Positions 49,806 through 58,591 of a stretch of 64,000 bases of DNA are shown piece after piece. The notes under the pieces were generated by a model. It worked only from the letters and a program-made list of their open reading frames with translations, did no database searches and was not told the DNA's origin. The DNA is from Armatimonadota bacterium (GTDB lineage Bacteria; Armatimonadota; UBA5829; DTJY01). A program made the position numbers and the translations under genes. The DNA is taken from assembly GCA_017993055.1 (NCBI GenBank), contig JAGONM010000010.1, forward strand, positions 1-64,000, given 5' to 3'. Every line of letters starts with the position of its first letter. The first letter of the stretch is position 1.

Positions 49806-49821
49806 ATTCTTCTTATCCCCT

Positions 49822-50187
49822 GGCGGTTGAAACCGCGGCAAGGACTGCACGAAGTCCACCTGCGTGGACTGGGGAGTCTAGTGTCCGCAGGGACACTTTG
49901 TGCCCTTGCAGCCGCGACTTCAGTCGCCCGGGCAGGAGCCATCTCTCCCGGCGGTTGAAACCGCGGCAAGGACTGCACGAAGTCCACCTGCGTGGACTGG
50001 GGAGTCAAGTGTCCGCAGGGACACTTCGTGCCTTTGGAGCCGCGACTTCAGTCGCCCGGTCGGCAGCCATCTCTCGCGGCGGTTGAAACCGCGGCAAGGA
50101 CTGCACGAAGTCCACCTGCGTGGACTGGGGAGTCAAGTGTCCGCAGGGACACTTCGTGCCTTTGGAGCCGCGACTTCAGTCGCCCGG
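49822..50187. repeat. Left array: three copies of a 110-bp composite palindrome
   Basis: Units 49822-49931, 49950-50059 and 50078-50187, each exactly 110 bp, separated by 18-bp linkers (period 128). Each unit holds hairpins GGTTGAAACC, AGTCCAC-N4-GTGGACT, AGTGTCC-N4-GGACACT and GCGAC-TTCA-GTCGC, and is itself an imperfect long inverted repeat. These three share the variant GCGGCAAGGACTGCAC. Confidence 0.93.
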
Positions 50188-50197
50188 TCTCGGGAGA

Positions 50198-50638
50198 CTA
50201 CGGCGCCTCGATGCTCGGCACAGCCTCTTCCCAGGCCACTTCGAGGTCACGCTCCGTCGTGTGGTCACGGTGGTGCTGCTCCTGGTTCAGAACATAGGCC
50301 TTCACCCTTCTAACGTCCGATCTGGAGACGCTGAAGGCCCCGTATCCGCCCTGCCACTTGAGGAACTGCTCCGTGCCCTCCAGGTGGGTCACCAGATGCG
50401 AGGTTGATCCCTTCACCTGCTTCGCCAGTTGGGCTACCGTGATGATCGTCGGAATCCTCGTCAGCAGATGGACGTGGTCCTCGGTGCCGCCGACGGCGCC
50501 AACGTCCGCCTTGAGCTTCGCACACTCAGCCTGGATTGCGGCGTAGACCAGGGGCTTGATCTCAGGGCCTAGCATCGGGATGCGGTCCCACGTGGACCAG
50601 ACCAGGTGCAGGTATAGTTGAGTGAAAGGCCTGCGCAT
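50198..50638 (-). CDS. IS200-like / REP-associated tyrosine (Y1 HUH) transposase
   Basis: 146 residues, usual length for TnpA Y1 transposases. The HUH motif is His55-Val-His57 in EDHVHLL; the nucleophilic tyrosine is Tyr115 in VRRVKAYVLNQEQHH; WQGGYGAFSVSRSDV is the conserved core. Such enzymes cut and rejoin single-stranded DNA at hairpins. It ends 10 bp from the left repeat array and begins 71 bp from the right one. There is no partner TnpB. The strand-specific layout and flanking palindromes favour a domesticated RAYT rather than a simple IS200. GGAGC lies upstream of the ATG. No frameshift or stop. Confidence 0.9.
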   Translation of the reverse strand: MRRPFTQLYLHLVWSTWDRIPMLGPEIKPLVYAAIQAECAKLKADVGAVGGTEDHVHLLTRIPTIITVAQLAKQVKGSTSHLVTHLEGTEQFLKWQGGYGAFSVSRSDVRRVKAYVLNQEQHHRDHTTERDLEVAWEEAVPSIEAP

Positions 50639-50709
50639 AGGGTTGCTCCATCATGGACAATATCGAATCAAGGTTAGTTGGGCCGTCCGGGGAGTCCTTC
50701 AAGGTGCAC

Positions 50710-51075
50710 GGCGGTTGAAACCGCGGCGATTACTGCACGAAGTCCACCTGCGTGGACTGGGGCCTGCAGTGTCCGCAGGGACACTTCGTGCCTTTGTAGC
50801 CGCGACTTCAGTCGCCCGGTCGGCAGCCATCTCTCGCGGCGGTTGAAACCGCGGCGATTACTGCACGAAGTCCACCTGCGTGGACTGGGGAGTCAAGTGT
50901 CCGCAGGGACACTTCGTGCCCTTGTTGCCGCGACTTCAGTCGCCCGGGCAGGAGCCATCTCTCCCGACGGTTGAAACCGCGGCGATTACTGCACGAAGTC
51001 CACCTGCGTGGACTGGGGAGTCAAGTGTCCGCAGGGACACGTCGCGCCTTTGGAGCCGCGACTTCAGTCGCCCGG
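50710..51075. repeat. Right array: three copies of the 110-bp composite palindrome
   Basis: Units 50710-50819, 50838-50947 and 50966-51075, with the same period and orientation as the left array but carrying the variant GCGGCGATTACTGCAC in all three, showing that each array has been homogenised separately. Confidence 0.93.
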
Positions 51076-57856: not shown

Positions 57857-58435
57857 ATGAGAAACGTCTTGTGGGCCGTGTGCGGCGTAATCATCGTCCT
57901 TGTTCTTGCCGCGGTTCTGTTTCCCTTCTCCGTACACGATGGCGGTCGTCCGTCGCTCTCGACACAGTGCATGCGGAATCTCAGCAAGCTGGGCATGGCG
58001 ACTGAGATGTACATGTCCGAGCATGATTACCGCTTCCCTCCGGTGAAGACCTGGAACGATGCTCTGAAAGAGCCTCTGACACGGATCTCCCGGTCGCCCA
58101 GTGACACCGACAAGCTGTTCATATGCCCTTCAGAGGTGAACGACCGGAGCGCGCCCTCCTACGCCGTGAACGCTCGGCTCGATGGGCTATCCGAGCGCGA
58201 CGTAGCCGATCCTACATACACGGTGCGCTACTTCGAGTCGATGCCCGGCCGCAACCTCCACGGAGGCCCCGAGCTTTTCCCGCCGGAACCGAGGCATGAG
58301 ATGGGATACGCGGTCTGCTACGCGGACGGCCATGTAGGATTCGTGCCGAAGTCCGAGATCGGCAAGCTGAAGTGGGAGCCGCAGTCCGCCAAACCGCGCT
58401 CAACCGAGAGACCTCCTGTAGGGCCGGGCGGTTGA
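57857..58435 (+). CDS. DUF1559-like H-X9-DG protein without prepilin motif
   Basis: 192 residues. N-terminal membrane helix (VLWAVCGVIIVLVLAAVLF), then the pseudopilin-like pattern MRNLSKLGMATEMYMSEHDY, FICPSE, SYAVN and RHEMGYAVCYADGHVGFV, the H-X9-DG signature typical of Planctomycetes, Lentisphaerae and Armatimonadota. Unlike most members it has no FTLIE-type prepilin cleavage site, so it is probably a membrane-anchored relative rather than a processed pilin. GGAGG upstream of the ATG. Its last few codons and stop lie inside the solitary 110-bp-type repeat beginning at 58426, so the C-terminus (PVGPGG) is repeat-derived. Confidence 0.85.
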   Translation: MRNVLWAVCGVIIVLVLAAVLFPFSVHDGGRPSLSTQCMRNLSKLGMATEMYMSEHDYRFPPVKTWNDALKEPLTRISRSPSDTDKLFICPSEVNDRSAPSYAVNARLDGLSERDVADPTYTVRYFESMPGRNLHGGPELFPPEPRHEMGYAVCYADGHVGFVPKSEIGKLKWEPQSAKPRSTERPPVGPGG

Positions 58436-58559
58436 AACCGCGGCAACGAAGGCACGAAGTGTCCCTGCGGACACTGGGAGGCCGTTGAACGGCTCCCCTG
58501 GGGTTCCAGTCCACGGAGGTGGACTTCGTGCCTTCGTTGCCGTGACTTCAGTCGCCCGG
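58426..58559. repeat. Solitary composite palindrome with inverted core
   Basis: Outer ends GGCGGTTGAAACCGCGGC and GACTTCAGTCGCCCGG match the arrays at 49.8-51.1 kb in the same orientation, but the core is reversed: AGTGTCC-CTGC-GGACACT comes first and AGTCCAC-GGAG-GTGGACT second. An extra segment of about 25 bp lies between them. Confidence 0.88.
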
Positions 58560-58591
58560 ATGCTGAACTTGCTTGCATTCCCCTCGCACAT

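Follow-up and report, generated by a model that had tools for sequence, protein, structure and literature searches.

A HUH/Y1 transposase gene in the window, a stretch of 64,000 nucleotides of Armatimonadota contig JAGONM010000010.1, lies between two arrays of a large composite inverted repeat that recurs beside related genes in at least four bacterial phyla. The locus is best understood as REPtron-like, that is, as a domesticated-type HUH/Y1 transposase flanked by a cognate non-autonomous repeat that it presumably disperses, a reading to which a probability of roughly 0.8 is assigned. As in REPtrons, the gene is bordered by a dispersed REP family of its own genome, and the REPs occur as inverted pairs (REPINs). 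The initial annotation had likewise proposed a RAYT/REP-like system, and this proposal is upheld both by the repeat family that flanks the gene and by the association of unit presence with the transposase across genomes. Domesticated transposases are reportedly the subject of a 2017 study by Bertels et al.

Organization and History of the Array

Six units of 110 bp, with start-to-start spacings of 128, 128, 632, 128 and 128 bp, are placed three on each side of the transposase ORF and are separated within each side by linkers of 18 bp (Table 1), and these coordinates and spacings bear out the arrangement that was originally described. The side-specific unit variants of that description also exist, with CAAGGACTG on the left and CGATTACTG on the right. 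A seventh, dispersed unit is also present in the window but was absent from the initial annotation; its left end provides the stop codon of the ORF at 57857-58435. The array units fold better than all 200 of 200 dinucleotide shuffles (z -4.0 and -4.3), and the seventh unit scores z -8.4 against 200 such shuffles. As single-stranded DNA, an array unit is predicted to form one long hairpin in which the halves pair together, a fold favored over four separate hairpins and one that counts against the REPtron-like reading.

Table 1. Coordinates of the transposase gene, repeat units and linkers in the window.
Feature	Position	Strand	Basis or remark
Unit U1 (two inverted half-units)	49822..49931	.	Half-unit model matches 49818-49874 (+) and 49876-49932 (-)
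Linker A	49932..49949	.	Identical to 50948-50965
Unit U2 (identical to U3)	49950..50059	.	Half-unit model and unit comparison
Linker B	50060..50077	.	Identical to 50820-50837
Unit U3	50078..50187	.	Ends 10 bp before transposase stop codon
HUH/Y1 transposase (RAYT-like), 146 aa	50198..50638	-	DHVH, Y115---Q--HH intact, WQ motif
Unit U4	50710..50819	.	71 bp upstream of transposase start codon
Linker B, second copy	50820..50837	.	Sequence identity
Unit U5	50838..50947	.	Half-unit model and unit comparison
Linker A, second copy	50948..50965	.	Sequence identity
Unit U6	50966..51075	.	Half-unit model and unit comparison
Seventh unit, dispersed	58423..58560	.	H1/H2 combination exchanged relative to the array

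The two sides had been thought to have amplified independently. A marker in the left half, consisting of three neighboring positions, does sort by side, but the linkers and the right halves are common to both sides, which weakens this claim. Linkers A and B recur unchanged on the other side, where their order is reversed (A, B to the left and B, A to the right), U2 and U3 have the same sequence, and no sorting by side is seen in the right halves, that of U6 being nearer to U2/U3 than to U4/U5. Together these features point to growth of the array most likely by tandem duplication that included the linkers, with exchange between the sides, rather than by six insertions. One relative, L071, differs from its near relatives L066 and L079 by a tandem duplication, roughly 100 bp long, that includes a half-unit. 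Outside the window, the same genome (G000) contains three more units, on contig 20 (C20:33214-33702), that are tandemly repeated together with flanking sequence.

The 3+3 symmetry pointed out in the initial annotation does not serve as a defining feature. Among close relatives, the Armatimonadota genome G017 has one unit per side, Nostoc and Planktothrix have a single half per side, and tandem clusters of this kind were already published: P. fluorescens has tandem REPIN clusters adjoining RAYTs (PMC3116915), and three REPINs belong to the REPtron of E. coli (PMC6006769). Arrays of 3+3 around a RAYT are known.

The Transposase and Its Clade

The protein matches Pfam Y1_Tnp (E=2.4e-18; 66.9 bits against a cut-off of 23) and NCBIfam transpos_IS200 (55.8 against a cut-off of 55 bits), and it aligns with the IS608 TnpA structure 2a6m. 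Residues H55, H57 and Y115 are invariant in alignment A2. The signature of the protein, YVLNQEQHH, follows a Y---Q--HH pattern that is found in nearly all relatives, and the Y---NP motif of Class 2 TnpA-REP is not matched by the protein. Both the window transposase and the relatives flanked by half-units have a short C-terminus. In a tree of 102 proteins, 43 of the 44 rows flagged for half-units fall into one clade of 67 rows with fair support (94/95), within which relations are poorly resolved. Among related Y1 proteins of other clades, those of G267, G268 and G270 are accompanied by 0 half-units in their genomes and that of G269 by 4.

One gene of this kind is present in the window's genome, and other genomes with several copies carry divergent ones that differ in their identity to the query. 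The window's genome also encodes a second, distant Y1 protein (C30:38888-39049; L032) that has no half-units within 1.5 kb. In the Armatimonadota genome G029, a second transposase (L043) has another multi-hairpin composite on its flanks (CCATCGGCTGAAGCCGA...), a case that suggests one composite repeat family per transposase.

Anatomy of the Half-Unit

Each unit, 110-134 bp in length, is composed of two half-units of ~55 nt in inverted, REPIN-like orientation, and each half contains two hairpins; the initial annotation was right to regard the units as composite and larger than classical REPs. The outer end of the half-unit is formed by hairpin H1, which has a TGAA or TAAA loop, and the inner hairpin, H2 (AGT...CTNC...ACT), has a CTNC loop and is preceded by CRAAG. 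Both stems carry compensatory changes. In a set of 136 distinct half-units drawn from several phyla, pairing reaches 98.2% of cells compared with 80.0% after shuffling, in an alignment that was fitted to the model structure and thus leans towards it; there, 11 of 12 stem pairs have changes on both sides, and sliding the structure by 1-3 columns lowers pairing to at most 41%. An ungapped alignment of 29 half-units from the window's genome, which was not fitted to the structure, gives 92.0% paired against 77.7% shuffled. A search against Rfam returned no family match to the units, tRNA being the sole match.

Two H1 stems and two H2 stems are found in the window's genome, with all four combinations among the halves, and the complete units read there join halves that differ from each other in both the H1 and the H2 stem. 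Some halves on contigs 17 and 35 of this genome stand in the opposite, back-to-back order. In the Gemmatimonadota genome G265, the two halves of a unit share the same H2 stem in 8% of cases compared with 44% expected by chance, whereas the H1 heterodimer rule of the window's genome does not extend to these units (36% identical, 29% expected). The H2 stems of the two halves usually differ, which gives the unit distinct left and right ends. The two flanks of the gene differ in H2 in 19 of 25 cases. The related genomes G006, G008 and G022 contain many half-units that stand back to back with overlapping outer ends and not head to head (e.g., G006 C49:99423-99529), and the transposase of the genus is frameshifted or escapes detection.

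Of the 136 distinct halves, 94 have a GT[AT]G word on the opposite strand, 2 nt before H1 (GTAG in 61, GTTG in 33). It is often missing from the window's array, where the words are mixed (GTTG, GTAG, GGAG, GCAG, CTTG and ATCG). As a guide to the strand on which the hairpins act, G-T wobbles point both ways: those of H1 are on the GTWG strand and those of H2 on its complement, a pattern drawn from few events.

Distribution Across Genomes and Phyla

At E<=0.001, about 43 half-units are present in the window's genome (3.7 Mb), and the majority lie outside the array. Movement in this genome looks old, since the dispersed copies are just 71-88% identical to the array unit. A covariance model derived from the half-units of this genome alone was searched against 80 named loci with relatives of the protein. 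At the 38 loci with at least 46% protein identity, a half-unit lies within 200 bp upstream of the gene in 35, downstream in 30 and on both sides in 29. Half-units number 5.0 per kb up to 300 bp from the gene compared with 0.17 per kb further out (29 times). The flanked loci belong mainly to Cyanobacteria and Chloroflexota, together with one Gemmatimonadota genome, and the Armatimonadota add G017, G029, G022 and G031. Adjacency of gene and unit thus recurs across phyla, with matching orientation. Model matches are rare at loci below 46% protein identity, which may reflect diverged repeats.

Presence of the gene (RAYT at E<=1e-30) and of the units (at least 4 half-units) was scored in 251 genomes of the phylum, with up to 22 candidates per genome. 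Gene and units were both present in 13 genomes, 6 had the gene without the units, 17 the units without the gene and 215 neither, corresponding to an odds ratio of 27 (Fisher p 1e-9, uncorrected for phylogeny). The expectation that units would follow the transposase from genome to genome therefore stands as a strong overall association, but not as a rule: among the 30 genomes that contain 4 or more half-units, 8 lack the transposase, with no homolog at 1e-10, the clearest being G006 with its 57 half-units. Six genomes have a good homolog and no half-unit detected by the covariance model, which may miss diverged repeats. Since G022, a genus mate of G006, retains a frameshifted homolog flanked by half-units, it is plausible that G006 lost the gene after its units had dispersed.

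Dispersal and the Gene-Bearing Cassette

Dispersal was followed in G265, in which 149 half-units were found among 150 scored and 40 unit regions were read. Most of its units are 134-136 bp long and lie in unrelated flanks, with conservation stopping at the foot of H1. A comparison of 80 ends in this genome distinguished the end types GCC[TG] and T[TG]GC, with no clear target-site motif outside the element. Near-identical genomes showed neither excision nor insertion of single units, and the only recent change seen was the duplication in L071.

In many cyanobacteria, the gene itself lies between two inverted half-units. At the dndC-dndD junction of Nostocaceae, 13 of 30 loci have the gene between an upstream and a downstream half-unit (one with an internal gap), and four junctions are empty, with gaps of 14, 68, 69 or 136 bp. 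The outer ends of this cassette are H1 ends (ACCGGGCG...CGCCCGGT), and the cassette is kept at one genomic site across Nostocaceae species. In many of these species (L077, L084, L086, L092, L095; L158-L187), the site is within a DNA phosphorothioation operon. The junction in other species contains a different, unrelated ORF (about 900-bp gap, e.g., L160) or nothing, and because its occupant varies in this way by species, it is a repeated insertion site.

Smaller pieces of the repeat also surround the cassette. Just upstream of it, where the Nostoc cassette has its left end, L084, L167, L170, L172 and L185 carry tandem copies of an 11-mer, AATACCGGGCG, which equals the outer H1 foot; these copies resemble stubs of repeated events at that position. 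Downstream of the gene, L158, L164, L172 and L185 carry tandem H1-only repeats (type TTTGCCTGTGTAGCCGCGAATTCCATTCGCCCGGTAT) without H2, which resemble classical REPs with one hairpin and would derive from the two-hairpin unit.

Proposed Mechanism and Alternative Explanations

Cleavage, strand and direction of movement can be modeled on TnpA-REP and IS608. By this analogy, a TnpA dimer would read the hairpins of a unit made single-stranded at the replication fork or by extrusion, the catalytic tyrosine would nick at the outer foot of H1, and the unit would be moved and re-ligated elsewhere. In Nostocaceae, the transposase gene may represent an element of this type, one that carries the gene inside its two halves.

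Enclosure of the gene by inverted half-units, seen in many cyanobacteria, and its variable presence between dndC and dndD would also be expected if this were an ordinary IS200/IS605-type insertion sequence, with the units as MITE-like deletion derivatives and nothing domesticated. Assignment of the transposase to IS200 by NCBIfam, as well as the H2 difference between the flanks (19 of 25), reminiscent of left and right IS ends, fit this account. It is nevertheless considered unlikely, as the gene is single copy in the window's genome, copies are divergent where there are several, and retention at one site across Nostocaceae is unlike the near-identical, multicopy IS200 (PMC6006769).

A REPtron-like origin was also weighed against two readings in which the gene has little to do with the repeats. 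If the units were RNA or DNA structures such as terminators, mRNA stabilizers, or nucleoid or gyrase sites, the transposase would be a bystander that inserts at them. The position of the seventh unit at the 3' end of an ORF suits such a role, the absence of an Rfam family match was counted in its favor, and REP elements are known with such roles in E. coli, as mentioned in PMC13289151, which cites older work. This is improbable given that gene-unit adjacency recurs across phyla in matching orientation and that the repeats are dispersed in unrelated flanks; structural roles gained after dispersal would, moreover, be compatible with an origin from the transposase. Duplication of the linkers with the units, their presence on both sides, and the tandem duplications with flanks in L071 and on contig 20 would suit a satellite-like array with no functional link to the gene. 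Such an array would account for copy number but would not explain why half-units are found next to the same gene in one phylum after another, making this reading very improbable.

A more far-reaching form of the REPtron-like reading is held only tentatively, at somewhat short of even odds. Here, the locus would represent a distinct, multi-phylum REP/RAYT class in which transposases of a Y---Q--HH lineage, intermediate between IS200 and class 2 RAYTs, each have a two-hairpin REP. H1 and H2 would have separate roles, the H2 difference would mark left and right ends, and the gene-bearing form of Cyanobacteria would be the autonomous ancestor, still surviving, of the dispersed units.

Comparison With Known Systems

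Work on the spread of REPs has so far concerned class 2 enzymes, mostly of Proteobacteria. The Y---Q--HH lineage adds an independent system that spans Cyanobacteria, Chloroflexota, Gemmatimonadota and Armatimonadota, with material that includes genomes with 140 or more half-units and cultured relatives in Nostoc and Planktothrix. With its occupied and empty sites, the gene-bearing cassette opens the way to tests of excision, of how ends are recognized and of how an insertion sequence becomes a domesticated transposase.

The closest parallel is the REPtron, in which TnpA-REP (RAYT) is associated with REPINs in E. coli, Pseudomonas and Stenotrophomonas (PMC6006769, PMC8266576, PMC3116915, PMC3733652). 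Both systems comprise a HUH/Y1 protein with inverted REP pairs that flank the gene and are dispersed, and REPtrons likewise have heterodimers and tandem REPIN clusters beside the gene. Canonical REPs, however, consist of a single hairpin whose foot is directly adjoined by GT[AG]G or separated from it by 1-2 nt, and they are paired with a Y---NP protein, whereas the system described here has two hairpins per REP and Y---Q--HH. The GT[AT]G word before H1 is reminiscent of the REP guide word. In E. coli TnpA-REP, E/H/R residues are reported to read GTAG (PMC6006769); judging from spacing, the positions at the same offsets in the window protein are probably A/F/S.

IS200/IS605 elements (IS608) share the catalytic domain, by sequence, and the hairpin-flanked gene, but differ from the present system, which has two hairpins per end and many gene-free paired units. 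Several near-identical copies per genome, an IS200/IS605 trait, were not seen, with one copy in the window's genome and divergent copies in the others listed. In TIRtrons (TIRYT), a Y1 gene also lies between inverted repeats, some of them self-complementary and dispersed (PMC3733652), though many of these repeats carry GGGGWSAS and the proteins are mainly of subclass 2.1 (Y---NP; PMC6006769).

The nearest published protein group is TnpA-Y1 subclass 1.2, with which the window transposase and its relatives share DH[IV]H, WQ, Y---Q--HH, a length of about 148 aa, low copy number and occurrence in Cyanobacteria (PMC6006769). That subclass is listed as lacking REPs and as having a conserved C-terminal domain of 30 aa (PMC6006769), whereas the window protein has REP-like flanks and, as judged by eye, a short C-terminus. 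No description of two-hairpin REPs, or of REPs for transposases of the subclass 1.2 type, was found in open papers. What appears to be new is a two-hairpin, mostly heterodimeric REP tied to a Y---Q--HH lineage, and it fills a gap in the published classification, in which the nearest subclass is listed as REP-free.
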